Source: a virus. From it: a DNA stretch of 21,893 nucleotides. The notes under the pieces are model-generated. The model was given only the letters and a program-made list of their open reading frames with translations. It ran no database searches and had not been told where the DNA came from. Positions within the stretch are counted from its first letter, which is position 1. Each line of letters begins with the position of its first letter. The stretch covers positions 1 through 21,893 of IMG/VR virus record IMGVR_UViG_3300025276_000245. The stretch is one strand, 5' to 3'. Of this stretch, positions 1 to 21,813 are shown one piece after another. A program made the position numbers and the translations under genes.

Positions 1-127
1 ACCAAACGCTGAAACTGAATTTCCTATGTTTTGATATGCTGAACCTAAACCAAAGGCAGAAACATTTGTTCCTGTGTTTAGTCTTGCTGAATCATAACCA
101 AACGCTGAAACATTATCCCCTGTGTTT
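1..127 (-). repeat. Exact 127-bp duplicate of 3793-3919 within the fibre array
   Basis: Bases 1-127 are identical to 3793-3919, an offset of 3792 bp or exactly 79 repeat units. The identity may continue left of the window. Most neighbouring units differ at many bases, so this is a recent segmental copy within the array rather than general repeat similarity. It covers the adjacent units read as FGYDSARLNTGTNVSA and FGLGSAYQNIGNSVSA. Confidence 0.9.
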
Positions 128-3100
128 GATGTTGCTGATAAATAGCCAAAGGCTGAAACAAATTGCCCTATGTTTGAATCTGCTGATTCATAACCAAACG
201 CTGAAACTGAATCTCCTGTGTTTGATTTAGCTGATTCAAATCCAAAAGCTGAAACCTTATCTCCACTGTTTGAACTTGCTGAATCCCTACCAAACGCTGA
301 AACTGAATCTCCTGTGTTTACTTGTGCTGAACGATAACCAAAGGCTGAAAGATTATCTCCTGTGTTTTGATAAGCAGATGCGTAACCAAAAGCTGAAGCA
401 TTTGTTCCACTGTTTGATTGTGCTGAAAACATACCGAACGATGAAACTGATTCTCCTGTGTTTTGTTCGGCTGAACTTAAACCAAAAGCTGAAACGTTTG
501 CTCCTGTGTTTTGTTCGGCTGATTCGTAACCGAACGCTGAAACTGAATCTCCTGTGTTTAGTCTTGCTGAATCATAACCAAACGCTGAAAGGTTATTTCC
601 TGTGTTTTCCTTTGCTGATTCATATCCAAAAGCTGAAACATTCGCTCCTATGTTCGATTGTGCTGATTCAGAACCAAAGGCGGAAACATTATCCCCTGTG
701 TTTGATGTTGCTGAATTGAAACCAAAAGCTGAAACCTTATCTCCTGTGTTTGAGTAAGCTGAACTATACCCAAACGCTGAAATTGAATTTCCTATGTTTT
801 GATATGCTGATGCGTAACCAAATGCTGAAACGTTTACTCCTGTGTTTTGGTAAGCGGAATTATTACCAAATGATGAAAGGTTATTTCCTGTGTTTTTCTG
901 TGCTGAATACGAGCCATAGGCTGAAACAAAATCTCCCTCGTTTTCTCTTGATGAATTAATCCCAAAAGTTGAAACACCTACTCCTGTATTTTCTTGTGCT
1001 GATTCAAAACCAAAGGCTGAAACATTTACTCCTGTGTTAAACTGTGCCGATGCAGAACCAAAAGCAGAAACGTTATCTCCTGTGTTTTGACTTGCAGAAG
1101 ATTGACCAAAAGCTGAAACATACTCTCCACTGTTAAATTCTGATGAATTAACACCAAACGCTGAAAGAAAAATTCCTGTGTTTTCTTTAGCTGAATCAAA
1201 ACCAAAAGCTGAAACAAAATCCCCTGTGTTTGAACTTGCTGAATTATTACCAAAAGCTGAAAGATTATTTCCTGTGTTTGCCTTTGCTGATATGTAACCA
1301 AACGCTGAAACCTTATCTGCTGTGTTTGTTAATGCTGATTGATAACCAAATGATGAAACCGAATCTCCTGTGTTTGATTGTGCTGATTGATAACCAAATG
1401 CTGAAACATTTGAACCACTGTTTTCCTTTGCTGAATTAACTCCAAAAGCTGAAACTAAATCTCCTGTGTTTTCCTTTGCCGATGAATAACCAAACGCTGA
1501 AACTGAATTTCCTGTGTTTTGCTCTGAAGATAAATAACCGAACGCTGATAAATTTGCTCCTGTGTTTATTTGTGCTGAACTTCTGCCAAAAGCTGAAACG
1601 TTGTTTCCACTGTTTGATAAAGCTGAATTGAAACCAAAAGCTGAAACGCTTTCTCCTGTGTTTTCTCTTGCCGAATTATAACCAAACGCTGAAACAAAAT
1701 CCCCACTATTTTGTTGTGCTGATACGTAACCAAAAGCTGAAACCGATGTTCCTATGTTTTCTTTAGCTGAATCAAAACCAAACGATGAAACAAAATCTCC
1801 TGTGTTTGAATTTGCTGAATACGAACCATAGGCTGAAACTGAATTTCCTATATTTAACTGTGCTGATGCGTAACCAAACGCTGAAACATTATCTCCTGTA
1901 TTTTCTTTTGCTGAATCATAACCAAACGAGGAAACGTTGTTTCCTGTGTTTGTCTGTGCTGAACGAAAACCAAAAGCTGAAACTAAATCTCCTGTGTTTG
2001 TTTTTGCTGAACCCCTACCAAAAGCTGAAACTGAATCTCCTGTATTTTCTCTTGCTGAACTATAACCGAACGATGAAACTTCTAAACCTGTGTTTGATTT
2101 AGCTGATTCAAATCCAAAAGCTGAAACACTCGCTCCTGTGTTTGCTTGTGCTGATTGGTAACCAAAAGATGAAAGATTTGCTCCTGTATTTTGCTCTGCT
2201 GAATCAAAACCAAAGGCAGAAACAAAATCTCCTGTGTTCGATTGTGCTGAATCCCTACCAAACGCTGAAACTGATTCTCCTGTGTTTAACCTTGCTGAAT
2301 TACCTCCAAACGCTGAAACTTGATTTCCTGTGTTTAAACTTGCTGATTCAGAACCAAAGGCGGAAACATTCGCTCCTATGTTTGATTTAGCTGATTGATA
2401 ACCAAATGCTGAAACATTGTTTCCTGTGTTTGATTCTGCTGAATTAACCCCGAAAGCTGAAACTGATTCTCCTATGTTTAACCTTGCTGAATCATAACCA
2501 AATGAAGAAACATCATTTCCTGTGTTTGTCTGTGCTGAAAATGTACCAAACGCTGAAACATTATTTCCTTCGTTTGACTCCGCTGAATAAGAACCAAATG
2601 ATGAAACGTTTGCCCCACTATTTTGTTTTGATGAACTATAACCAAAAGATGAAACCGATGCTCCTGTGTTTTCCTTTGCCGATTCTCTACCAAACGCAGA
2701 AACGTTGTTTTGTGTATTTAATTGTGCTGAATTGAAACCAAAAGCAGAAACATTTTCTCCTGTGTTTAATTCGGCTGATTGATAACCGAACGCTGAAACA
2801 AAATCCCCACTGTTTTCTTGTGCTGATGCAAAACCAAACGCTGAAACGTTTGAACCTGTGTTTAATTGTGCTGATAGATAACCGAACGCTGAAACAAAAC
2901 CTCCTGTGTTTTGTTGTGCTGATGATTGTCCGAATGCTGAAACAAAATCTCCTGTGTTTTGATTTGCTGATGCTAACCCAAATGCTGAAACTGATACTCC
3001 TGTGTTAAATTTTGCTGAACCTTGACCAAAGGCTGAAAGTGAAACCCCTATGTTTTCTTTTGCTGATTCATAACCAAACGCTGAAACTGAATCTCCTGTG

Positions 3101-4686
3101 TTTGATTTAGCTGATTCATAACCAAAGGCTGAAACCTTATCTCCACTGTTTGAACTTGCTGAACCTAAACCAAAGGCAGAAACATTTGCTCCTGTGTTTT
3201 GTTTTGCTGATTCATAACCAAAAGATGAAACGTAATCTCCTATGTTTAATTGTGCTGACGAGTAGCCATAAGATGAAACAAAATTTCCTTCATTATTTTG
3301 TGCTGAAAATGAACCGAAAGCTGAAACTCTCGAACCTATATTTGTTTTTACTGATTGATAACCAAAAGCTGAAACAAATTCTCCTGTGTTTTGCTCTGCT
3401 GAATTGAAACCAAAGGCTGAAATGTTTTCTCCTATGTTTTCTTTTGCTGAATCAATACCAAATGCTGAAACGTTGTTTCCTGTGTTTAATTGTGCCGATG
3501 CGTAACCAAAGGCTGATAATGATTCCCCTGTGTTTTTTTCTGCTGATGCGTACCCAAAAGCTGAAACGTTTACTCCTATGTTTGAATTTGCTGAATACCA
3601 TCCAAAGGCTGAAACGTTGTCTCCTGTGTTTTTCTCTGAAGATAAATAACCAAATGCAGAAACGTTTTCTCCTGTGTTTTGATAAGCCGATGTGTTACCA
3701 AAAGCTGAAAGATTATTTCCCTCGTTTTCCTTTGCTGAATTAACTCCAAAAGCTGAAACTGAATCTCCTGTGTTTTCTCTTGCTGAACTTCTACCAAACG
3801 CTGAAACTGAATTTCCTATGTTTTGATATGCTGAACCTAAACCAAAGGCAGAAACATTTGTTCCTGTGTTTAGTCTTGCTGAATCATAACCAAACGCTGA
3901 AACATTATCCCCTGTGTTTTCTCGTGCTGAATTATAACCAAACGATGAAACCGCAACCCCTGTATTTTGATAAGCTGAATATGCACCAAAAGCTGAAACT
4001 GAATCTCTTGTATTTTCTCTTGCTGAATAATAACCAAAGGCTGAAACCGAATTACCTATGTTTTCTCTTGCCGAATAATAACCAAAGGCTGAAAGGCTAT
4101 ACCCTGTGTTTGATAGTGCTGATTCAAAACCAAAGGCTGAAACGTTGTTTCCTGTGTTTTCTTGTGCCGATGCGTAACCAAATGCTGAAAGTTTTGAACC
4201 CTCGTTTTCTTGTGCTGATTCAACCCCTACCGCAGTAACGGAATCACTACCAACAATACTATCAATTGCACCCTCTCCTAAACCTAATGAATTACCATCT
4301 TCTAAAAATGGTATATCAGAACCGCTTGTTTTTACCCAGTTAGTTCCGTTATAAGATATTAAGTCTCCTTCTTTAAAATCAATAATACCGTTACCTAAGT
4401 CAATAGAACCGTTTTCAGAAACTTTATAAGTATCTAAAGGAAAACCCGTTCCGTCGGCTATAACAGGTGTATTTGTTGTTGGATTCCAAGAGCCTTTAAA
4501 ACCTCTTAATAAAGCTATTTTTACCTTCTTTGCGTTTTCTACTCCTTTTTGAATAACACTTACTTCTTGCTCGTCGTTTAGTATAGTAGCCTCTTCTAGT
4601 TCTGACGTTAGTTTACTATTTGTTATTACTGAGTTAATCCAAATAGAATGTTCTAAAACTATTTTCTCTATCTCCGCTCGTGTCAT
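1..4686 (-). CDS. Giant repetitive tail fibre / receptor-binding protein (3' end beyond window)
   Basis: The minus-strand frame starting at ATG 4684-4686 stays open for all 1562 codons to the window edge; I read every triplet and found no stop. Residues 1-152 are non-repetitive. They include a module around residues 60-120 with the motif GSWNPTTNTPVIADGTG followed by a YNGTNWVK motif, a pattern I associate with tail or fibre proteins of Bacteroidota phages and with small carbohydrate-binding-like modules. From residue 153 the protein is 88 tandem 16-residue units, e.g. FGYDSARLNTGTNVSA, plus the first two residues of an 89th. The alternating VSAFG and xxSAxxN segments resemble YadA/Hep_Hag head repeats, which form beta-rolls in trimeric adhesins. 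The gene starts 3 nt after the preceding tail-tip gene stops and is last in the visible tail module, the usual place for a fibre. Its role in host binding is inferred from position and fold. The C-terminus is not visible. Confidence 0.95.
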   Translation of the reverse strand, partial: MTRAEIEKIVLEHSIWINSVITNSKLTSELEEATILNDEQEVSVIQKGVENAKKVKIALLRGFKGSWNPTTNTPVIADGTGFPLDTYKVSENGSIDLGNGIIDFKEGDLISYNGTNWVKTSGSDIPFLEDGNSLGLGEGAIDSIVGSDSVTAVGVESAQENEGSKLSAFGYASAQENTGNNVSAFGFESALSNTGYSLSAFGYYSARENIGNSVSAFGYYSARENTRDSVSAFGAYSAYQNTGVAVSSFGYNSARENTGDNVSAFGYDSARLNTGTNVSAFGLGSAYQNIGNSVSAFGRSSARENTGDSVSAFGVNSAKENEGNNLSAFGNTSAYQNTGENVSAFGYLSSEKNTGDNVSAFGWYSANSNIGVNVSAFGYASAEKNTGESLSAFGYASAQLNTGNNVSAFGIDSAKENIGENISAFGFNSAEQNTGEFVSAFGYQSVKTNIGSRVSAFGSFSAQNNEGNFVSSYGYSSAQLNIGDYVSSFGYESAKQNTGANVSAFGLGSASSNSGDKVSAFGYESAKSNTGDSVSAFGYESAKENIGVSLSAFGQGSAKFNTGVSVSAFGLASANQNTGDFVSAFGQSSAQQNTGGFVSAFGYLSAQLNTGSNVSAFGFASAQENSGDFVSAFGYQSAELNTGENVSAFGFNSAQLNTQNNVSAFGRESAKENTGASVSSFGYSSSKQNSGANVSSFGSYSAESNEGNNVSAFGTFSAQTNTGNDVSSFGYDSARLNIGESVSAFGVNSAESNTGNNVSAFGYQSAKSNIGANVSAFGSESASLNTGNQVSAFGGNSARLNTGESVSAFGRDSAQSNTGDFVSAFGFDSAEQNTGANLSSFGYQSAQANTGASVSAFGFESAKSNTGLEVSSFGYSSARENTGDSVSAFGRGSAKTNTGDLVSAFGFRSAQTNTGNNVSSFGYDSAKENTGDNVSAFGYASAQLNIGNSVSAYGSYSANSNTGDFVSSFGFDSAKENIGTSVSAFGYVSAQQNSGDFVSAFGYNSARENTGESVSAFGFNSALSNSGNNVSAFGRSSAQINTGANLSAFGYLSSEQNTGNSVSAFGYSSAKENTGDLVSAFGVNSAKENSGSNVSAFGYQSAQSNTGDSVSSFGYQSALTNTADKVSAFGYISAKANTGNNLSAFGNNSASSNTGDFVSAFGFDSAKENTGIFLSAFGVNSSEFNSGEYVSAFGQSSASQNTGDNVSAFGSASAQFNTGVNVSAFGFESAQENTGVGVSTFGINSSRENEGDFVSAYGSYSAQKNTGNNLSSFGNNSAYQNTGVNVSAFGYASAYQNIGNSISAFGYSSAYSNTGDKVSAFGFNSATSNTGDNVSAFGSESAQSNIGANVSAFGYESAKENTGNNLSAFGYDSARLNTGDSVSAFGYESAEQNTGANVSAFGLSSAEQNTGESVSSFGMFSAQSNSGTNASAFGYASAYQNTGDNLSAFGYRSAQVNTGDSVSAFGRDSASSNSGDKVSAFGFESAKSNTGDSVSAFGYESADSNIGQFVSAFGYLSATSNTGDNVSAFGYDSARLNTGTNVSAFGLGSAYQNIGNSVSAFG
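7..4230 (-). repeat. 88 in-register copies of a 48-bp coding repeat
   Basis: From 4230 down to 7 the coding strand consists of exactly 88 units of 48 bp (4224 bp) with no insertion or deletion. The protein consensus is F-G-Y/F-x-S-A-x-x-N-T-G-x-x-V-S-A. By my reading, position 2 is Gly, 5 Ser, 9 Asn and 15 Ser in all 88 units. Position 1 is Phe in 84, Tyr in three and Val in the first. Position 11 is Gly in 85. Position 10 is Thr in 59 units, Ile in 15, Ser in 9 and Glu in 5. Variation is concentrated at positions 3-4, 7-8 and 12-13. The first unit, next to the N-terminal domain, is the most divergent. Confidence 0.97.
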
Positions 4687-4689
4687 ATT

Positions 4690-6717
4690 TTACTGTTTTA
4701 TTTTTAAGTAGCCTCCCGAAGCTATTTCAAGCAAACTAGGAATTTCTAAACTATCTACGTTAAACAAACTACCTGTTCCTTTGGACGTATAAACTGCGTT
4801 AGATTTAGTCATTTGAGCGTTAACCCTATATTGATTAGTTCCTACCAAGTGTACTACGTCTGGAGAATCTTCCTTAACGTATTGTACTTCGTTCAAAAAT
4901 ACAAATTTATGTGATAACGCTTGTATAACTTTACGCATTATTTGCTTTGGCATTAATTTAAACGCAATTAAATCATTTTCATAAGACTGAGCGTTAATTA
5001 AATAAGTCTCTCTATCGGTTTTTTCTGAGTCTGTTACGTCGCTAAAATTACCGCTAAAAAATTCTATTGGTAGCCTAATTTTATTTTTAATACCCGTTCC
5101 GTAAAACATATCGGTATTTTCATCATTGTAATACTCAATAAGAACTGCGTCTTCGTGAGTTTCTTTTACGTCTATTATTTCACTAATATAAACCTGCTCT
5201 TCAAATGAATTGTCTGAATCATTTTGAGTTATATTAACTTGTATTTTTCTATTTTTAAATATCTCCATATTTATAGAAAACTCCCATATATCGTATTTCT
5301 CTATACTATAAGAACTTTTAACAACTACCGAAGATTCTAAACCACTGTAATTGTAATCTATTACTATTACGTAAGCTGATTTAGTTTCGTCGTAAACTAT
5401 ATTTACTATTTCGTACCAACCCGAAAAAACAAAAACAAAGTTACCGATAACTCCCCATTGAGGTAAATTACCGTTTAATACATAGCTATCGGAAGTAGGT
5501 AAACCAGTATCGTAATCACATATATTTCCGTTCATAAAATATATACCCGTTTGAACTCCTAAATCAGCTAAATCATAAGCTAACGCAGTTCTACAATCTT
5601 TTAAGTCTGCGTTGTTTGATTTCTTTATTACTGGTATATCATCATAAATAGCTTCTCCGTCTTCTAAAGAAATAACGGTAGCTACAATATCCCTGTAATT
5701 AGTTTTTACTTGAGTTGTTATTACGTCGCAATTTTGAAATAATTGATTATACTCTAAAGCGTTTTCAGTATAAGGTAACTGGCAACTTAAAGTATTTTCG
5801 TCGTTTTTATAATTTGAGCAATTTCCCCAATCTACGTATTTAGCAAATCTTATTGAATTTGATTTACTTGGTAAATCTGAATAAGGTATTCTCTGCCCTA
5901 TACCGCCTTCTGAAAATTCTGGTATTGTAAAATTAAACAAAGTAATACAACCAAACTGGTCTCTTACCAAAGAAGGGTAATTGCCAGGTAGTATTCCCGA
6001 ATAAGAATTGTTAGATTGCCAATTAACATTATCTAAAGAGTATTCTAATTCAAGTAGGTTTGTATCTGTTACCAATATATTTACGGTAGCACCCGACGGA
6101 GAGTTTACGTAAGATACGCTAATATTAGCAGATACTAAATTACTAGGAATATCTAAAGTTCTTTGACTTGTAGTACCGTTAAATCCTTCAATAGTTATAT
6201 TAGCTAAAGAAGACCGAAGTAAGTCTAAGGTAAAAGGGTTGTTTATATTTGGGTATTCTATTCTATTTATTTTATACTTAACGGCTAAAACGTTTGTAGT
6301 TATTGTAACCTTTATATTTCCGCAAGTATCTACGTCGCTAGTTGAAAAAGAAACATCTTGAAAATCTATAACTACTGGGTTTGCTGTATTTTCTACGCTA
6401 AAATTTAATAAACCACCAGTTTGGTCGTTTACGTACTCTGTTTTAAAAAAATCTTCGTCTGGGTGTTCTATTGAAATTGAATTATTACCTACGTTGTATA
6501 ATATTACAAATAAATTAGAAATATTATAATCCGCTACAATAGCACTATATAAAGCAAAAGTGGTAATACTTATATCATTACCTAAACTAGATTGAAAAGG
6601 AGATATTCTTAAATCTTTAAATGTTTCTCTTATATTATTTAAGAAACCAACACGTAATTCTATAAAGGAATTTTCTTGAGGTACTCCGCTTAATGATATT
6701 GTTAATTTACTAGCCAT
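4690..6717 (-). CDS. Tail-tip / baseplate structural protein with SprB-like segment
   Basis: 675-aa protein lying between a larger tail-tip protein and the giant fibre, 5 nt after the former and 3 nt before the latter. No signal peptide or membrane segment is evident. Residues about 199-265 look like an Ig/PKD-type repeat: EYSLDNVNWQSNNSYSG, then LPGNYPSLVRDQFGC. This closely follows the Bacteroidota SprB-repeat pattern (YSIDG..., F.GL..G.Y.V.V.D..GC), known from gliding adhesins and other cell-surface proteins. Six cysteines are spread over residues 132-413 or so, and the C-terminal half is mixed beta-rich sequence without a motif I recognise. By position it is probably part of the tail tip, either supporting the fibre or contacting the host itself. 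Exact function is unknown. Confidence 0.9.
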   Translation of the reverse strand: MASKLTISLSGVPQENSFIELRVGFLNNIRETFKDLRISPFQSSLGNDISITTFALYSAIVADYNISNLFVILYNVGNNSISIEHPDEDFFKTEYVNDQTGGLLNFSVENTANPVVIDFQDVSFSTSDVDTCGNIKVTITTNVLAVKYKINRIEYPNINNPFTLDLLRSSLANITIEGFNGTTSQRTLDIPSNLVSANISVSYVNSPSGATVNILVTDTNLLELEYSLDNVNWQSNNSYSGILPGNYPSLVRDQFGCITLFNFTIPEFSEGGIGQRIPYSDLPSKSNSIRFAKYVDWGNCSNYKNDENTLSCQLPYTENALEYNQLFQNCDVITTQVKTNYRDIVATVISLEDGEAIYDDIPVIKKSNNADLKDCRTALAYDLADLGVQTGIYFMNGNICDYDTGLPTSDSYVLNGNLPQWGVIGNFVFVFSGWYEIVNIVYDETKSAYVIVIDYNYSGLESSVVVKSSYSIEKYDIWEFSINMEIFKNRKIQVNITQNDSDNSFEEQVYISEIIDVKETHEDAVLIEYYNDENTDMFYGTGIKNKIRLPIEFFSGNFSDVTDSEKTDRETYLINAQSYENDLIAFKLMPKQIMRKVIQALSHKFVFLNEVQYVKEDSPDVVHLVGTNQYRVNAQMTKSNAVYTSKGTGSLFNVDSLEIPSLLEIASGGYLKIKQ

Positions 6718-6722
6718 ATCTT

Positions 6723-9029
6723 TTACTTGTTAAATTTTTTTAATTTCCATTTACCTACACCGTTAGGGGATAGATTCTCTAAGTAACCCTCTTCAATCTG
6801 CCCGTCTTCATTCATAAAGGAAACTAGACCATAAAAATTTTGAACTTCTTTTCCCAAAATTACGGATTTTCCCCGAACTTTTTGCAGTAAATCATAATCT
6901 ACTTGATAATCAAACTCTATAATTTCTCCGTCTGTTCTTGCTTTTTCTAAATCACTAGCTTTTATATTACCGTTTTCAGCCCTAGAGACACCACCGTATT
7001 CGGGGTACTTATCGGCTTTTAACTCAGTTATAAGACCGCTGTTTGCTACTGAACTTCCGTATCTTACAAAACTTAAAGGGTACTTTACTAAACCTGCTCC
7101 TATTCTCCAACCGTGTCTAAGCAATATATTTAAAGGAGATAATCTCAAGTTCTGTGCCGTAGTAGGACTAAAAACACCTTTAGGCTCACTTTCAAAATCA
7201 TCTTGCCAAAGTCTTTGTTGGAATATTTTAAAAAAATCAATAAATGAGTTTCCCGTAAATGCTTGTCTTCTTAAATCCAACAACCATATAGAGTTATCGT
7301 ATTTAGTATCTTCGGTTGCGTAGTTTACAAAATCAAAACGTCTACAGAACTCCATACCGTATGAATCTGCTCTATACTTGGAAACTGCTTCGTATTTTTT
7401 TTCTAGCTTATCTATAATAGTAGTATAACTTGTTCTAGCGTTATATTCATCAAGACCTACCGCCTCTTCATAATTACCACCTTTGTCGTAACCTATATCA
7501 ATACTAGAACTAAAAACATCGGTATCGACACTTCTACGAACATTGTTTACTTGTACGTACTCAAACTTTCCTTCTATTATTTTTCCTAATCTTATTGTTA
7601 TATTTTTATTATAAAAGTAACTTAGTTTTTCTATTCTAAAAACCTCTTTAAATCCTACGTATTCTACACCACCTCCTAGATTCCAAATATCAAAGTAAGA
7701 TTTATAAAAATCCTTAAATGAAGTTGTCATAGATTTATACCTATTTTCTCCTTCTGAATTTAATTCTGGTTCATCGTCCTTACTAAATCCACGAACCCAA
7801 AAACCGTGAGTTAAACCAATTAAAGATGCTTCTCCGTCTTCATCGTAACCGTTTTCTGTTTTTCCTAAAACATTACTAACAAGCAAATCGTCCTTACCTG
7901 TGAATATTTTTAAAAGTCTATTACAAACTTCAAAAGGAAAATGAAACCTACTAACACTTGAAAAAAACTGACTATCTTCTTCTATATTTATACTAGCATC
8001 TATGTTTTCAAATCTAACTATTAACTCCCCTTCGTTTATACCTATTGTACTACCAAACCTACCGTAAGCGTACCATTGTAAAGATAAACTTTCCCCAGCC
8101 AATAGGTTTATATCTCTTTCTATATCAATAGATGAAAAAGGAACTGTTACAGCGTTATTGTTTATTAAGTTTGGGGTTAACTCTTCTCTTTCAATTATAT
8201 TGTAATCAGTACCGCCACCAAATTTAGCTAAAACTAAATGTAGAGTAGCATCCTCTAAATCATCTATATCTACTTCTAAAGTATTAAAATCAACTTTTAT
8301 TTTTATATTTAAAGTTTTATCTATATTGTTATCAGTATAAAACATACCTTCAACTCTACCTTCGTCGGGTGTTGTAGTAAAAGACAAATCCTTCGGTACT
8401 GCGTGGCTTCTTATATCAGAAGAGTATGTTTTTGAAACGGGAACTCCTAAACTACCCGTCCTTTGATTTCCGTCTCTAAATACCATTCTAAACGCACCGC
8501 TAGTACTTTCTTCGGGGTCTGTTTCTAGTAATGATTTTAGAAATATATTCCTACCTTTTAAAGAGACGTTACTTGGCTCTAAATAAGGTATTTCTTCGCC
8601 TTTTAAAGTATCTAGCCTATCTATCTCTATTTTCTCATTTTGCCTAGCCTTAATAACTCTTAAAAGACCGCTACTGATAAACTTAATAGAAACCCCTGTG
8701 TTTTGTTTCTCGTAAGTTGTTAAATCTAAAAACCCACTATAAGAGGTTTCCCATACGTCGGTTAAAGGATTTCTCTCTTCTTTGATTAAAATTAAATCTG
8801 CGTTAATACCGTATAAATTATAAATAGAGGATATAAAATTAGCACCGTCGTTGTAGAATGTAAGTTTGTTTGTCATTTGCGGAAATATACCGTGAAATGA
8901 TTTATCTCTTACAAACTCGTTATCGTCTTCTCTCCAACCAGACGGCTCTTGCGTTGTCTGTGTTCCCGTTGGGTTGTGGCTTAATTTATATTGAACTCTA
9001 TCTGAGTAAATCGGTTGTATTGTAGACAT
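6723..9029 (-). CDS. Large tail-tip / distal tail (hub-like) protein
   Basis: 768-aa protein directly following the tape measure; the tape-measure stop and this ATG overlap as TAATG. The N-terminus (to about residue 130) includes FPQMTNKLTFYNDG, a segment ending YSGFLDLTTYE, and then ISSGLLRVIKARQNEKIEI. This layout, with a short beta-rich head followed by a large variable body, is familiar from the first tail-tip protein of Bacteroidota siphoviruses, and distal-tail or hub proteins normally sit right after the tape measure. No peptidase or lysozyme motif is visible. Assignment rests on gene order and general resemblance, so the precise role (Dit-like ring versus Tal-like hub) is uncertain. 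It starts the large tail-tip cluster whose last member is the giant fibre. Confidence 0.9.
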   Translation of the reverse strand: MSTIQPIYSDRVQYKLSHNPTGTQTTQEPSGWREDDNEFVRDKSFHGIFPQMTNKLTFYNDGANFISSIYNLYGINADLILIKEERNPLTDVWETSYSGFLDLTTYEKQNTGVSIKFISSGLLRVIKARQNEKIEIDRLDTLKGEEIPYLEPSNVSLKGRNIFLKSLLETDPEESTSGAFRMVFRDGNQRTGSLGVPVSKTYSSDIRSHAVPKDLSFTTTPDEGRVEGMFYTDNNIDKTLNIKIKVDFNTLEVDIDDLEDATLHLVLAKFGGGTDYNIIEREELTPNLINNNAVTVPFSSIDIERDINLLAGESLSLQWYAYGRFGSTIGINEGELIVRFENIDASINIEEDSQFFSSVSRFHFPFEVCNRLLKIFTGKDDLLVSNVLGKTENGYDEDGEASLIGLTHGFWVRGFSKDDEPELNSEGENRYKSMTTSFKDFYKSYFDIWNLGGGVEYVGFKEVFRIEKLSYFYNKNITIRLGKIIEGKFEYVQVNNVRRSVDTDVFSSSIDIGYDKGGNYEEAVGLDEYNARTSYTTIIDKLEKKYEAVSKYRADSYGMEFCRRFDFVNYATEDTKYDNSIWLLDLRRQAFTGNSFIDFFKIFQQRLWQDDFESEPKGVFSPTTAQNLRLSPLNILLRHGWRIGAGLVKYPLSFVRYGSSVANSGLITELKADKYPEYGGVSRAENGNIKASDLEKARTDGEIIEFDYQVDYDLLQKVRGKSVILGKEVQNFYGLVSFMNEDGQIEEGYLENLSPNGVGKWKLKKFNK

Positions 9030-12000
9030 TAATTTATTAGTTTAGATTTCCAAATACTATGAGGTATATCTACCTTCTCTGTTTTTACAAAGGTATTAGA
9101 TTTTGAGTTCTTAACCGCCTTTGTATTCCTAATCATTTCATCAAGTAGTCTTTCGTCTAATTCCCTCTGCGTAGTCAACAAGCCTTCAATGTTTTTCTGA
9201 TTTAAACTAATACTAGCTAAAAGAGTTGCGGAATGTAACATACCCGTCAAATCACTAGGATTGTTATTGTTGAACTTTTCAATAGAAGAGAAAATCTCAG
9301 TTCCTTTTGGAAGATTAACAAGTGTATCGGTATCGGGTGTTATACTTATCTCTCCGTCGGGAGTTCTAATAACCTCTCTTTTACCACCGTCTCCTACTAC
9401 CGCTAAACCGTCGTGGTCCATTACCCCACCCTCAGCAAATTGAGGTAAAGGTTGAGCAAGAACAGCTGCGGCTTGTAACGCACCTAAAGAATATACAACA
9501 GGTAGTAGAGGTAAACCAAATACTAAACCAGTTGTAGCAAGAGTTTTACTTGCACTTATAGCTGTGTTTATTGCTATTTCAATTAAAGCGTTTGCTTTGT
9601 TAAATATAGCCTGTTCCCTTTGTACTTTTCTTTTCTTTTTCTCAAGCTTCTGTTTATCCTCTTCCTCTTGTATAGCGAGTAACCTTTTTTGCTCTGCGTC
9701 TCCTTCGGCTAAAGCAAATAGTAAGTTGTACTTTTCTTCCTCAGCCTCAATCTCTGCGTCTATCTTAGCTATTTTACGCTCAAATACAGCGTTACCTATA
9801 TTAGCTAATTCAGAAGCGAATTTACCAGCCCATTCTAAATCCGTCTCGTATTGCTCTCTTTTTTTATCTGGGTCGTCTTCGCTTCCAGGTTTGCTTGCTC
9901 CCGTACTAAGACCCGATTGTAGTCTAGCTATTTCATTTCTAATCCTTTCTACTTCCTCTGTTGATATACCTAGCGTTAGTAATAAAGCTTGATTGTAAGC
10001 TACAAGTATCTTTATTCTTTCGTCGTTGGCATCGCTCGCATTTTTCGTAATATCTTTATCTAGATTCTTTTTTAAAATTGCGTAATCTTTATCAAGCATA
10101 AAGGCTTTTTTCTGAGCCTCGTCCATATCCTTAAACTCTTTTCTAAAAGAGTCTTCAAGTGCCTTTTCTTTTTTATCAAAACCAGCCTGTGTTTTATCTA
10201 ACTTTCTTTTTAAGTCTTTATCTAATTCTTTGTCTAAAAACTTCTCGTGGTCAATTTCAATTTTTCTAACTCTTTTATTATGGTCTAGTAGTAGTAATTC
10301 GTTTTTTTGCTGATTCTCTTTATCTATATCTTGTCTCTGTTTATCGCTTGTAGTTTTTTCTTTTTCTAGTTTAGCTTTTTTATTATTCCAATCAACCTCA
10401 TCTACAAAACGCAAATTTGACACCTTTTTCAAATTCTCTGCGTTATCCTCAGCTAAATCAACTCTCTCTGCGTAGGTTTTCGTATTTGATTCAATCATTT
10501 TTTTATTAAACTCAACCTCTGCCAACAATCTTTCAGCTTTTATCTTTATTTCTAAGTCTCTTATATTTCTTAAAGAACTACCACCGTCGTCTCCACCACC
10601 ACCTATCGGGTCTGCGGATTCCTCAGCCAATAATCTTGTTGCGTTTAGCTTTCCTTGTGCTTTGTTTAATTTCTCTATTAATCCTTCAATTTTAATTTCA
10701 ATATCCCCTGTTGGCTTGAAGCTTGTTAACTTCTTCGACCAAGACATTTTATCGTTGTTTGCTTGAATAGTTTCTAATTCTTTTTTTGCCTCTTTTACCG
10801 CTTCTTCTGCTAGTCTTTTATTTTCTAAAGCCTTTCCAAATGATTTTTGAGCATCTTTTGTTGCAAACTCGTTTACTTCGTCTCTAAATTTTAATTGCTT
10901 TAAATTAGCTTTTCTTGTAGCTTCATCTGCAGTAGCTATCTCTTCTTTTGTTGTAGCTTTCTCTCTAAGTCGCTTTGCTGCATCAAATTCTTTATTTATA
11001 TCCTCTATCTTATTACCTGTTTTTCTAACTGAATCAATCCTAAACTTAGCGTAATCTTCTATCTCGTTTTTTGTTTGAGTAAAAGAGTTTCTAGTTTGTA
11101 ATTGTTCCATTGCTTCGTCTTTATTAAAAAGCATATTACTAGCCTCTACTGCTTCCGTAATATAATCCAAAACACCTTTAAAAAACTTAGATATAACGCT
11201 ATCACTACCTGTTAAGTTTTTAACGTAGTTCTGCCAAGCCGTAGATAATCTATTTTCAGAAGCTACCAAAGTTTCAATCTTATCTACCGTATCTAAACCA
11301 AAAGCAACCTCTACCGCATCGGCAAAACCAGGCAATACCTCAGAAGATATCAACTTTCCTTTTTTAAGTAATTCATCAAGCTGTGGTAAAGTAACACCTA
11401 AACTCGCTGCCATTATACCAAACGCACCTGGTAATCTCTCCCCTAATTGTCTTCTTAATTCTTCCGTAGTTACTTTACCTTTGGAAAGCATTTGTTCTAA
11501 AGCTAAAAATACTCCGCTTAATTCATCAGTCCTAAGACCAAGAACAGCTCCAGCTTTTGCCATTGTTAGAAATATCTTTTGAGTATCTTTCATAACAAGA
11601 CCAGAGTTTCTTGCTGCGGCAGAGAACTTTATAAATCTAGTTGTTGTAGAAACTAAATCTAAACCCAACTCTTTAGAAGTTTCTAACATAAACCTCATAT
11701 TCATTTGAGCCGTCTCTAAAGTCCTAGACGTTTTTTCCATTGCAAACCTAAGAGAATCAAAAGTCTTTGCTAGTGAGAATATCTTTTTTCCAAAGGCTAA
11801 AATACCCGCACCACCTAAAGCTAAACCAAAACTACGCATAGCCGTAGACAATGCTCTTATTACAACTAATGATTTTTTATTAGCAGAGGTACTACTTTTC
11901 GTAGCTTTAGTACTATTTCTCATAGCGGAAATCCTCTTTCCGTTTGCTGAGGTAAGTTTGTTGTTTGCCGTTATAAGTTTATTTATAGATTGAATTTCTT

Positions 12001-12160
12001 TAATAATAGCTTGATTATTATCAACACCGCCAACCTTAGCGTTTGCCCCAGCTTTATTTATTTGAAGTATTTTGTTATGTAATTTATTTAGTTCTTGCGT
12101 AGCTTTTTCAATCTCAGCTATCGCTTTTTTGGAAACTATTACGTCAACTTGTCCAGCCAT
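9029..12160 (-). CDS. Tail tape measure protein
   Basis: 1043-aa protein that sets tail length during assembly. Residues 1-95 are helical and rich in Lys/Asn/Ala. Residues about 112-127 are hydrophobic and Gly/Ala-rich. Residues about 130-290 match the conserved tape-measure N-terminal domain, including TTEELRRQLGERLPGA at 231-246 and the following MAASLGVTLPQLDELLKKG. A long charged coiled-coil region fills about 340-830. A second hydrophobic stretch, roughly 840-905, ends in QFAEGG, followed by a short glycine-rich segment, a layout typical of tape-measure C-termini. By the usual rule of about 0.15 nm per residue the tail would be near 155 nm, so a siphovirus is likely. The gene starts 2 nt after the upstream gene and its stop overlaps the next start. 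Confidence 0.97.
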   Translation of the reverse strand: MAGQVDVIVSKKAIAEIEKATQELNKLHNKILQINKAGANAKVGGVDNNQAIIKEIQSINKLITANNKLTSANGKRISAMRNSTKATKSSTSANKKSLVVIRALSTAMRSFGLALGGAGILAFGKKIFSLAKTFDSLRFAMEKTSRTLETAQMNMRFMLETSKELGLDLVSTTTRFIKFSAAARNSGLVMKDTQKIFLTMAKAGAVLGLRTDELSGVFLALEQMLSKGKVTTEELRRQLGERLPGAFGIMAASLGVTLPQLDELLKKGKLISSEVLPGFADAVEVAFGLDTVDKIETLVASENRLSTAWQNYVKNLTGSDSVISKFFKGVLDYITEAVEASNMLFNKDEAMEQLQTRNSFTQTKNEIEDYAKFRIDSVRKTGNKIEDINKEFDAAKRLREKATTKEEIATADEATRKANLKQLKFRDEVNEFATKDAQKSFGKALENKRLAEEAVKEAKKELETIQANNDKMSWSKKLTSFKPTGDIEIKIEGLIEKLNKAQGKLNATRLLAEESADPIGGGGDDGGSSLRNIRDLEIKIKAERLLAEVEFNKKMIESNTKTYAERVDLAEDNAENLKKVSNLRFVDEVDWNNKKAKLEKEKTTSDKQRQDIDKENQQKNELLLLDHNKRVRKIEIDHEKFLDKELDKDLKRKLDKTQAGFDKKEKALEDSFRKEFKDMDEAQKKAFMLDKDYAILKKNLDKDITKNASDANDERIKILVAYNQALLLTLGISTEEVERIRNEIARLQSGLSTGASKPGSEDDPDKKREQYETDLEWAGKFASELANIGNAVFERKIAKIDAEIEAEEEKYNLLFALAEGDAEQKRLLAIQEEEDKQKLEKKKRKVQREQAIFNKANALIEIAINTAISASKTLATTGLVFGLPLLPVVYSLGALQAAAVLAQPLPQFAEGGVMDHDGLAVVGDGGKREVIRTPDGEISITPDTDTLVNLPKGTEIFSSIEKFNNNNPSDLTGMLHSATLLASISLNQKNIEGLLTTQRELDERLLDEMIRNTKAVKNSKSNTFVKTEKVDIPHSIWKSKLIN

Positions 12161-15599: not shown

Positions 15600-15745
15600 T
15601 ACTTTTTAGTTTTTGCTTTTGCCGTCTTTTTTGTTTTTACGTCTAGCTTACCAGAGTCTCTAAGGGATTTTGCAACCCCTTTAGATACTCGTTTGGTTTT
15701 TCCGTTAAATGTTATTTCAACGGTATTGTCTTGGTAGAACCCCAT
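15599..15745 (-). CDS. Small 48-aa basic protein following the capsid gene
   Basis: 48-aa protein: a beta-rich front (MGFYQDNTVEITFNGKTKRV), a short helix and a Lys-rich tail (KTKKTAKAKTKK). Its ATG overlaps the capsid stop as TAATG, and its own stop overlaps the next start in the same way, so it is part of a continuous translation chain. Small basic genes after the major capsid gene can encode head accessory or connector proteins, but no known family is recognised. The Lys-rich tail could bind DNA or the inner capsid surface; this is inference only. Confidence 0.8.
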   Translation of the reverse strand: MGFYQDNTVEITFNGKTKRVSKGVAKSLRDSGKLDVKTKKTAKAKTKK

Positions 15746-17019
15746 TATAGTGGAGTTACTTCCTTAGCAATAGATGCCTTATCAGTTGCAAAGTCTCCTT
15801 TTACAAAAGCAGGATAATGGTTAGACTTAACTCTCTGAACTAATCTAGCCTCAGCCAAGATAGTAACAAAGTTTTTAGTGAAATCGTCATTTTCATAACC
15901 GATATCAAAAACTAAAGTCTCTTTGAATCTTACTCCAGCTTTGCTGAAATCTCCAACTAAATACTCTCCTTCGGTAACACCTACGTTTGAAACGATTGGA
16001 ATACCTTTTACAACCGTGTTTGCGTTTGTAGAAAAAGGTGGTAAACGGTAATGTCCGTCATTTCCTTTGTCTAAATCCATTGCTGCAGCATCCGTAGGAT
16101 TCATAACAATATAGTTAGGTTGGAACTGAGCAATCATAACTTGATTAATCGCTACCCTTAACACGTCTGCGTTGTTTGGGTCTACAACCTCGTTAGCTTC
16201 TCCTGTTGCAAAAGAACCAGGTGTAAAAGCAACTGCGTTTAAATTAATACCAGCCAAGTTTTGACCAGTGTTGTCTCCCGTTAATAACTGAGAATCAATT
16301 TTTAAGTTGATTACCTCTGTTAATTCTTGATTGATTTCTGATTCCATTAAAGGAACATCGTCTAGCATCTCTTTAGATACCTTGATAAAAGCGGTAACTT
16401 TACGAACTTGAGCAGAAGCAAGTACTAAATCGAAGTCGATTTGACTTTTCTTTAATCCTTCCCCAGTCATTCCTGCGTCTCCCTCAGCGTTTGCTTGTTG
16501 AACCCATTCCCAAAGATTAGAAGTAATTGAACCTACGTTCACTAAGTCTAAAATAAATGGTTGTCTACGTACAATTCTAGTGATACCAGATTCACGTTCA
16601 GCCTGTGGTATTTGACCAGTTACGTTTGAACCAAGAGTCATATTACCTACTGCCTTTACAGCAAATCTAATATTAAGCTTGTTATCGCCATTCTTCATAG
16701 CTGTTAACTTGTCTTTACTATCAGAAAGTAATTTACTTACTTGTTGCTTCATACTAAGTTTGTTTCCAGCGTTTGCTTCACTTAACTTAGCTACCAAACC
16801 TTCAATCATACCAGCTTGTGCTTTTTGAGCATCTTTTAACTCGGTATTAGAGGTTACTAATTTGTCAATGTTTCCTTTCAACTCAGTTGAGTTGTCAGTA
16901 ATAGCTTTCAAAGTACTAGGATTTACCGTTTTAAAGGCATCAACTAACTTTGAATCCATTTTTTCTCCGATAGAAGATTCTATCTTAGAGATAAGCGCAT
17001 TAAATTCTTGTTCGTTCAT
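15745..17019 (-). CDS. Major capsid protein, HK97 fold
   Basis: 424-aa protein of the Phage_capsid (HK97 gp5-like) family. Residues 1 to about 115 are helical, charged and rich in Lys/Ser/Ala, matching a scaffolding delta domain. Residues about 118-415 carry the capsid body: GITRIVRRQPFILDLVNVG (the start of the N-arm/E-loop region), KVTAFIKVSKEMLDDVPLME, INLKIDSQLLTGDNTG, YIVMNPTDAAAMDLDKG and KGIPIVSNVGVTEGEYLVGD. The delta domain is expected to be cut off by the protease encoded just upstream. Gene order portal, protease, capsid is classic HK97 style, and no separate scaffold gene is present. The stop overlaps the ATG of a 48-aa gene. Confidence 0.97.
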   Translation of the reverse strand: MNEQEFNALISKIESSIGEKMDSKLVDAFKTVNPSTLKAITDNSTELKGNIDKLVTSNTELKDAQKAQAGMIEGLVAKLSEANAGNKLSMKQQVSKLLSDSKDKLTAMKNGDNKLNIRFAVKAVGNMTLGSNVTGQIPQAERESGITRIVRRQPFILDLVNVGSITSNLWEWVQQANAEGDAGMTGEGLKKSQIDFDLVLASAQVRKVTAFIKVSKEMLDDVPLMESEINQELTEVINLKIDSQLLTGDNTGQNLAGINLNAVAFTPGSFATGEANEVVDPNNADVLRVAINQVMIAQFQPNYIVMNPTDAAAMDLDKGNDGHYRLPPFSTNANTVVKGIPIVSNVGVTEGEYLVGDFSKAGVRFKETLVFDIGYENDDFTKNFVTILAEARLVQRVKSNHYPAFVKGDFATDKASIAKEVTPL

Positions 17020-17864: not shown

Positions 17865-17957
17865 CTACTTCTTTATAATTTTTTTGTCCTTAAACTCTTT
17901 TTCACGTTTTTTGACAATACTTTTTATTTGCTCCTTAGTTGGTTTAGTCTTCTTCAT
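17865..17957 (-). CDS. Possible 30-aa lysine-rich peptide between portal and protease
   Basis: A short frame beginning at ATG 17955-17957 overlaps the last 14 bp of the portal gene in another frame and ends 3 nt before the protease start. The product starts MKKTKPTKEQIKSIVKKREK and is almost entirely Lys/Glu with a helical pattern. It fills the only gap of more than 50 nt between portal and capsid genes, and the overlapping start is like that of the other small genes in this operon. With only 30 codons in AT-rich DNA it could be chance. Confidence 0.42.
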   Translation of the reverse strand: MKKTKPTKEQIKSIVKKREKEFKDKKIIKK

Positions 17958-19248
17958 TTTCTTGTCTTTCTTGACCGTTACCACCCTCAATATTTGAGTT
18001 AGGACTAGCCGTTATTACTTGAATTTCCTCTAACTCCAAATCAGAGTCAAAACCACAAAGTTCTAAAGCCTTTTCTTTTGGAATACCCGTGATTAATAAA
18101 TCATTTAATGCCTTTGCTTTTTTACTTATACCCTCGTAGCGTTCAATTAAAATGAACTGCATTATCGGTAAATGCTCATAACTACCTACAATCTCAATAC
18201 TAGAATCATCTAGCAAACCGCCCAATACGTCAGCAAAAGCGTTAATACTAGATTGCATCTCATTTTGAATATAAGAAACCATTGATTCCTTAAAGTTATT
18301 GTAAGTAGTTTTTTTAGCTTCTAGAGAAATAATATCTTTCGGAATATGTAAAGCCGTGTAAATTAAGTTTCCGTCAACTTTTACGGATTCATCTAATCCC
18401 AAATCCCTTAATGCTATATGTAGTGATTGATAAGTAACACCAGCTTTTGTTACGATACCTCTTTTTCTAAACCAACCAAGACCGTAGTTGTTTTGTAGCA
18501 AGTTCTCTGCGTTTTCTTTATCCCCACCTACTAGAGGTAAGTGTGTATTTCCGCTACCACTAATTATTTCTTTACCGTTTGTTTTTAGTATGATATTCTT
18601 AGCAATAAGAGAGTCGTTTGTATTTATCAACGTCTGCTTCAATCCGTCCAACCTTGAGCGAACCTCAAAGAAGTTTTTATTGAACATATTAGGAAGGTCG
18701 TAGAAAAATATTAAATCCCGCATTGAGATATTTAAGTTTTCTCCGTCTTGGTCGTAGATTATATTTATATCCTCTAAAGCACTAGATGCTTGTTTAGATA
18801 ACATTTTAGATTTGTAATTATCGGGGTATTTAATCAAGTCAGAATCTAATATATAGATAGAATCTAAATCTTCATTTCTAGTAAATCCTGGTAGTCTCTT
18901 CAAGTACCCAACTGCCTTTCCTTGAGCAATCATAATAAACTGTAAACTCTCTAAAAAGTCGTTCTGAGTCTGATATAAGTTTGGTTTTCTTAATAAGTTA
19001 ATTAACCAATGGTCTTTAACCTCTTTTCGTGTAGATTTGTCTCTTACTTTAAATTCAGCTTGACTGAAAAGTTTTGCTATAAAAAGTAATGCGGGTGTTA
19101 ATATAGGGTGGTTTTGAGCAAAGTCTAAATTACTAGAGTTAGCGGTAAGTCCAAATCCATTTTCGCTATTTTTTACGTACCAATTACTGCCATCCTTTGT
19201 CCTAGTCCAAGTTAGTTTTCGTAGTTTTTCGACAATATTTAATTGCAT
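17944..19248 (-). CDS. Portal protein, HK97 family
   Basis: 434-aa protein of the Phage_portal (HK97-type) family, forming the ring at the packaging vertex. Typical segments are visible: NHPILTPALLFIAKLFSQAEF (43-64), HWLINLLRKPNLYQTQNDFL (80-99), then FIMIAQGKAVGYLKRLPG, and in the C-terminal half a GLGWFRKRGIVTKAG segment, ALHIPKDIISLE and YNNFKESMVSYIQNEM. The C-terminal tail is acidic and Gln/Asn-rich. The start is supported by a predicted promoter 18-46 nt upstream, which leaves a short leader. It opens the visible virion module. The terminase genes that normally precede it are absent here. Confidence 0.95.
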   Translation of the reverse strand: MQLNIVEKLRKLTWTRTKDGSNWYVKNSENGFGLTANSSNLDFAQNHPILTPALLFIAKLFSQAEFKVRDKSTRKEVKDHWLINLLRKPNLYQTQNDFLESLQFIMIAQGKAVGYLKRLPGFTRNEDLDSIYILDSDLIKYPDNYKSKMLSKQASSALEDINIIYDQDGENLNISMRDLIFFYDLPNMFNKNFFEVRSRLDGLKQTLINTNDSLIAKNIILKTNGKEIISGSGNTHLPLVGGDKENAENLLQNNYGLGWFRKRGIVTKAGVTYQSLHIALRDLGLDESVKVDGNLIYTALHIPKDIISLEAKKTTYNNFKESMVSYIQNEMQSSINAFADVLGGLLDDSSIEIVGSYEHLPIMQFILIERYEGISKKAKALNDLLITGIPKEKALELCGFDSDLELEEIQVITASPNSNIEGGNGQERQENEED

Positions 19249-21714: not shown

Positions 21715-21813
21715 TGAGGTAGGTAGGACTCGAACCTACAAGATTAATTTCCCCCTACAGAATTAATCTAGCCCCTTTCCGAAGCCTATGTTTACCAATT
21801 TCATCACTACCTC
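21715..21813 (-). tRNA. Class II (Leu-like) tRNA or tRNA-like element with abnormal anticodon arm
   Basis: On the minus strand a 99-nt cloverleaf can be drawn. The acceptor stem GAGGTAG/CTACCTC is perfect over 7 bp and the discriminator is A. The D arm is ATG...CAT with an AAATTGGTAAA loop, as in bacterial tRNA-Leu. The T arm is GTAGG-TTCGAGT-CCTAC. The variable arm is a perfect 8-bp AGATTAAT/ATTAATCT stem with a 13-nt loop. The anticodon arm would be GGCTT-CGGAAAG-GGGCT, closed by three G-U pairs, with GAA at 34-36 but G instead of U at position 33. No CCA is encoded. Identity and charging are uncertain. Confidence 0.6.

Follow-up and report, generated by a model that had tools for sequence, protein, structure and literature searches.

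What does a phage gene do when its product consists mainly of one short unit, repeated at least 88 times without any change in length, and can such an array itself touch the host? We have analysed this question on a window of 21,893 bp, which is the entire virus record IMGVR_UViG_3300025276_000245, from a marine phage whose host group is probably Flavobacteriia. The explanation that we favour, and regard as likely overall, is that the gene encodes a mobile, diversifying and probably trimeric solenoid shaft of a tail fibre, which would contact the host surface.

The fibre gene and its repeat array

The tail-fibre gene, recognised from its open frame and from a gene position as in related phages, occupies positions 1–4686 on the minus strand and lacks its 3′ end. 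Starting from an ATG at 4686, the frame runs through 1562 codons with zero stops. Since the window is the entire virus record, the gene runs off the contig itself and not merely off the edge of a window. Its product is laid out as a 126-residue anchor, a 26-residue leader, and then 88 complete 16-residue units (residues 153–1560). The array of these units, delimited by the unit count and modelled with AlphaFold2 and Foldseek, has the consensus FGYxSAxxNTGxxVSA and covers 7–4230 (minus strand), while bases 1–6 are the start of unit 89.

All of the 88 units are exactly 48 bp long, without an indel, and G2, S5, N9 and S15 are each present in 88 out of 88. Several other positions are nearly invariant, i.e., F1 (84/88), A6 (82/88), G11 (85/88), V14 (73/88) and A16 (74/88), and column 3 is Tyr or Phe in 59% of units. 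This regularity over 88 units far exceeds chance, and our recount agrees with the original prediction on the 88 in-register 16-residue units, the 1562 open codons and the invariant Gly2, Ser5, Asn9 and Ser15. There are 87 distinct units at the DNA level and 86 at the protein level. Actually, the similarity between units is independent of their distance (lags 1–20) and there is no trace of a higher-order periodicity, so recent block duplication is not indicated in the array. Antisense ORFs on the plus strand through the array were rejected as genes, being a product of the repeated codons.

Gene neighbourhood and N-terminal anchor

Directly upstream of the fibre gene, and also on the minus strand, lies a gene for a 675-aa virion structural protein (4690–6717, PHROG 26672) that is kept in relatives. 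A second virion structural protein, of 768 aa (6723–9029, minus strand), is recognised by its match to PHROG 15220 and has homologues in Tenacibaculum, Polaribacter, Leeuwenhoekiella and Cellulophaga phages. On the same strand are the genes for the tape measure protein (9029–12160; PF20155, E 1e-25; PHROG 18891), the major capsid protein (15745–17019, PF05065) and the portal protein (17944–19248, PF04860). A tRNA gene at 21715–21813 (minus strand) was found with Rfam RF00005 at 38.5 bits and was missed by ARAGORN. We recruited relative contigs via the major capsid protein, which has full-length relatives at 64–76% identity; in single-protein scans of viral contigs, the fibre and its 768-aa neighbour gave no close relatives.

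The order tape measure, 768-aa protein, 675-aa protein, fibre is common to P12002L, JQ, Arctus_1 and IMG/VR relatives, and a fibre-type gene stands at the same position in all three examined genomes that carry a homologue of the 768-aa protein. One of these relatives, Tenacibaculum phage JQ, has been identified as a siphovirus by microscopy (PMC11267871). The N-terminal anchor (residues 1–126; 4309–4686, minus strand) is defined by its homology to the fibres of related phages, with 42–54% identity over residues 1–125, and 46% to P12002L over residues 20–130. The same N-terminus is found in 7 of 19 larger relative contigs, and a profile scan finds it in 8 contigs. The anchor model has a helix at residues 3–23 and a small beta domain at 63–120, with pLDDT of about 80–85 only for residues 61–120, and Foldseek returned no useful match for this N-terminal model. 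Overall, gene synteny and N-terminal homology support the view that the gene at 1–4686 is the tail fibre of a flavobacterial siphophage, which is in line with the phage fibre originally proposed.

In all relatives the anchor homology ends at about residue 125, and the shafts beyond it vary from phage to phage. P12002L and the IMG/VR relatives, e.g., IMGVR_UViG_3300022841_000021 (G008), share with the window the gene position and a homologous anchor, whereas their shafts and C-termini differ and contain no long array. The shaft of G008, the closest large relative, has a short block of about 6 related ALGYxxLxNNTTG repeats, and two relatives (L234, L104) carry a Peptidase_S74 chaperone at the C-terminal end. 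Two further observations concern these relatives. The fibre of G002 (L101:1061-2224) has another tandem repeat shaft, STGxGIxSxN, and also runs off its contig end; G004 (L102:49-3120) has a large separate gene of 1023 aa after the fibre, whose product may be another receptor-binding protein.

Leader and array shared with a second phage

The strict unit pattern was matched by one other viral contig, IMGVR_UViG_3300009428_001714 (L108), and had zero matches in the genome contigs of 84,980 species. The L108 array runs off its contig after at least 43 such units. In the window, the array is preceded by the leader of the putative mobile shaft module (residues 127–152, FLEDGNSLGLGEGAIDSIVGSDSVTA; 4231–4308, minus strand), which is near-identical in L108: 80 of 84 nt are the same over residues 127–154, and the four differences are all synonymous. 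Upstream of the leader the identity to L108 is only 29%, and the N-terminus is unrelated. Beyond the window and L108, the DNA pattern of the leader is absent from the viral collection. The other genes of L108 show no similarity to the window genes, and its portal shares 31% identity with the one in Nonlabens phage P12024S.

The position-specific codon frequencies of the two arrays correlate at 0.98 (0.88 for the minor codons). The order of units is not collinear between them, as 31 of 200 permutations reach the observed score and the identity of units at the same position equals random. Unit identity is 0.700 between the window and L108, and 0.695 and 0.704 within each of them. Because units are as similar between the phages as within them, the two arrays apparently draw on one pool of units. 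The L108 fibre resembles the one in the window in its leader, its unit type and its codon frequencies by position, whereas its N-terminus, phage background and unit order differ. Sharing of the leader would thus have been followed by rearrangement or replacement of the arrays. The best reading of these similarities is that leader and array have been exchanged as a cassette between unrelated phages.

Codon divergence and the role of the array

For the analysis of divergence, codons 3, 4, 7, 8, 12 and 13 were taken as exposed, which was inferred from their variability and polar make-up. At the first and second bases of these codons, the proportion differing between units is 0.58, while at four-fold silent sites it is 0.30 (0.25 without codon 16). 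The ratio of exposed to silent divergence is thus 1.9–2.3 here. For seven other arrays of this class it is 1.07–1.30, with more diverged silent sites (0.42–0.64). In both the window and L108, the codons taken as exposed are far more diverse than the silent sites of the framework.

Codon choice in the array is also unusually fixed by position. V14 is GTT in 106 of 106 cases, against 45% in the other genes of the phage, and T10 is ACA in 93 of 94, against a background of 30%; N4 is always AAT (20/20) and D12 is GAT in 41 of 42. At Ala16, in contrast, the four third bases are used almost evenly (GCG 37, GCT 33, GCC 25, GCA 18; background GCT 51%, GCA 33%). This flat wobble recurs in L108, while the other framework codons are locked there. 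Linkage within the unit is almost solely between adjacent codons, and none of note is seen between neighbouring units. Taken together, these patterns point to diversifying selection on the exposed faces combined with frequent recombination among units. The locked silent codons could reflect a constraint at the DNA level rather than youth, in which case the apparent excess of replacements would shrink.

It is quite possible, although we hold it to be less probable than a shaft that itself contacts the host, that the array is a pure spacer, i.e., only a long, stiff shaft holding in place a tip that is encoded beyond the contig, with exposed residues that vary through lack of constraint. Tip-type ends such as the S74 chaperone do follow other shafts in relatives, the repeat class is common and variable in unit number, and the combination of invariant framework residues with free exposed residues is what a spacer would show. 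Under neutral drift, however, divergence at silent sites should equal or exceed that at exposed replacement sites. The reverse is observed here, with silent four-fold sites at 0.25–0.30 and exposed first and second bases well above them, and other arrays show no such gap. The diversification pattern therefore weakens the spacer explanation.

In the mechanism that we propose for a host-contacting shaft, the conserved anchor (residues 1–126) joins the shaft module, i.e., the leader and at least 88 units, at a sharp boundary, which can be seen directly in the sequence. Each unit is predicted to be one coil of a YadA-like (LbR) beta-solenoid, in which the invariant Gly, Ser, Asn and Ala together with Phe and Val would form the framework, and the pairs 3–4, 7–8 and 12–13 would be exposed. 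The S74 chaperone domains act on trimeric fibres in known proteins. Since other fibres with the same anchor end in such a domain, the fibre is probably a homotrimer. The resulting long rigid rod may reach the cell and touch a surface polymer via repeated ladders of variable side chains, and a receptor-binding or chaperone tip may follow beyond the contig. The leader and array would be passed as a cassette between unrelated phages, and the array would turn over by units being gained, lost and shuffled. Its exposed positions would diversify more quickly than the framework, which is what diversifying selection on a host-recognition surface should produce. The presence of the fibre in the virion, its trimer state and its receptor binding are inferences in this scheme. 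Phages that infect marine Flavobacteriia have to keep up with hosts whose surface glycans change. A single shaft module that unrelated phages share, that turns over fast and that presents about 90 repeated columns of variable contacts is a system for studying how arrays evolve binding surfaces, and it offers a test case for whether long solenoid shafts themselves bind receptors.

The codon pattern also brings up a stronger version of this proposal, namely that leader and array form a mobile cassette for receptor contact which has a diversification process to itself. Framework codons would be kept nearly fixed at the DNA level, exposed codons and one wobble position would be randomised, and the reshuffling of units would outpace mutation of the leader. 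We regard this as rather unlikely. If true, phage tails would have, in the form of repeats, a counterpart to antibody-like or DGR-like variation. Similarly unlikely, in our estimate, is that the array is varied by a dedicated system, through targeted mutagenesis or through programmed recombination of short patches, as opposed to ordinary mutation and selection. Such a system would account for codons locked by position next to exposed codons near saturation and a flat third base in Ala16, for linkage confined almost solely to adjacent codons and not extending between neighbouring units, and for a unit order that is fully scrambled relative to L108 despite the near-identical leader. Strong positive selection together with gene conversion could, however, give much of this pattern. 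Moreover, the ORF list and family scans of part of the window ORFs, in what is an incomplete genome, revealed neither the reverse transcriptase and template repeat of a diversity-generating retroelement (DGR) nor a recombinase.

Contig end and array length

The length of the array has to be read together with its end. Bases 1–127 are an exact copy of 3793–3919, also within the array; the match is exactly 127 nt long, and the two copies are separated by 3792 bp, corresponding to 79 units. The second-longest internal exact repeat of the array is 58 nt. The terminal duplicate is probably a break made by a k=127 assembler at a repeat node. A break at such a node means that the count of 88 units is dependent on the assembly, and the last ~2.6 units of the array are the shared 127-nt k-mer. 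The C-terminus of the fibre and the rest of the array lie beyond the contig, and 88 units is a minimum. If assembly is not the whole cause of the duplicate, the two copies may trace back to a large duplication or an unequal crossover in the array.

One may ask whether assembly has inflated or scrambled the array, by tracing a single long path through a graph in which repeats from several strains are joined. The contig end does duplicate an exact 127-mer located 79 units away, and the second contig, L108, likewise ends within its array. Apart from the one node, however, the array repeats extend to at most 58 nt, so that a k=127 graph would be unambiguous elsewhere, and the same unit design recurs at least 43 times in L108, an independent contig. 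We therefore consider inflation quite improbable. In general, repeat genes of this kind break short-read assemblies, and their length and frequency are underestimated. The span of ~40 nm first estimated for the array is reasonable as arithmetic, and because the array is cut by the contig end it stands as a lower bound only.

Predicted fold

AlphaFold2 predicts for 10 units a regular solenoid with one strand block per 16 residues (pLDDT 94.3, pTM 0.85), using an alignment made of 39 windows of the array itself. When the alignment was shallow, the fold of the leader and of units 1 and 2 was not confident, so the solenoid prediction leans on the repeat-derived alignment. When the 10-unit model was compared with structures, Foldseek found no significant match in the PDB (nothing at E < 0.5), where the best weak matches were left-handed beta-helix enzymes, with CsgA and a plant ice-binding protein lower down. 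Against BFVD, matches reached a probability of 1.00 with TM 0.56–0.71 and E 0.007–0.12, and the best of them include LbR_YadA-like proteins and comparable repeat proteins from phages and giant viruses. The idea of a regular solenoid is thus supported by the 10-unit model and by the YadA-head-like character of its best viral fold matches.

At the sequence level, Pfam YadA_head (PF05658) did not match the full protein at E ≤ 1 or the 10-unit piece at E ≤ 10, and PDB sequence searches with the array, the array profile and a Halorubrum fibre gave nothing significant. By hhalign, the array aligns with the broad phage repeat class at 99.9% (E 1e-31), and the top PDB match of the broad-class profile is the trimeric autotransporter EibD, in register, at E = 0.19. 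The claimed YadA resemblance therefore holds in the viral fold neighbours, which are YadA-like, but not in the Pfam YadA_head and PDB sequence matches, which are not significant. Considering the model, the shape of the array is probably a YadA-type roll; its membership in Hep_Hag/YadA by sequence is weakly supported.

A disordered, FG-nucleoporin-like repeat protein is hardly credible, since the match to PF13634 Nucleoporin_FG, though above the gathering cut-off (E 3e-9, 38 vs 32.2 bits), rests on a G/F/S/N-rich composition, while the model is folded with pLDDT 94, every unit keeps its length of 48 bp, and the gene stands in a phage tail operon. This match, a Pfam match to MvaI_BcnI and an NCBIfam match to Avs1b were all rejected as composition artefacts.

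Comparison with known repeat fibres

The fibre belongs to an array class with a 16-residue period, Gly2, Asn9 and mostly Gly11. Three NTG motifs spaced 48 nt apart occur in at least 120 viral contigs, and the jumbo Tenacibaculum phages pT24 and PTm1 carry arrays of this NTG class. That is, this kind of fibre is already known, and length-locked repeats of this type are not unusual in phage proteins, contrary to what had been supposed from the window. NTG-class arrays also exist in some bacterial MAGs (Ignavibacteria, Bacteroidales, Balneolia). Among these, Bacteroidales and Ignavibacteria MAG contigs (L237, L239) have long NVNAFGxxSAxxNTG arrays, which could belong to host surface proteins or to prophage. 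The array in the window is set apart by how long it is, by the exchange of its module with L108 and by its pattern of diversification. Uninterrupted arrays in the other loci examined have mostly 5–23 units, and the present one, with at least 88, is the longest among these loci, though longer ones may exist, as the loci are truncated and the motif count is a lower bound. A literature search did not find a paper on the present array.

The nearest known fibres are those with 16-residue GxxAxxNTGxxVxA(F/I/L) repeats, e.g., BPT24_138 of pT24 (annotated 'chlorovirus glyco repeat'), ORF-006 of PTm1, ORF_00037 of a Halorubrum tailed virus, and the IMG/VR loci L105–L219. They share with our fibre the period, the Gly2/Asn9/Gly11 skeleton, long fibre-like genes and an origin in phage or archaeal-virus genomes. 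On the other hand, theirs show mixed codons and saturation of silent sites, whereas here the codons are locked and Ser5 and Ser15 are invariant. BPT24_138 (3229 aa; L105:1585-11274) contains several NTG-class arrays, most of which are closed by a similar ending, xNSTALGANSxxTKSNQxxLG...

The head domain of YadA and EibD is the other point of reference. It resembles the array in having short coil repeats of Gly, Ala and Asn, with the array being a predicted solenoid. The YadA head repeat has a period of the 14-residue type, whereas the array has 16-residue units with an NTG motif, and the outer-membrane anchor of YadA/Hep_Hag proteins is not expected in a phage. A marine metavirome study (PMC3909814) reports that the tail fibre of a pelagiphage contains a YadA domain in its C-terminal part, which is variable.
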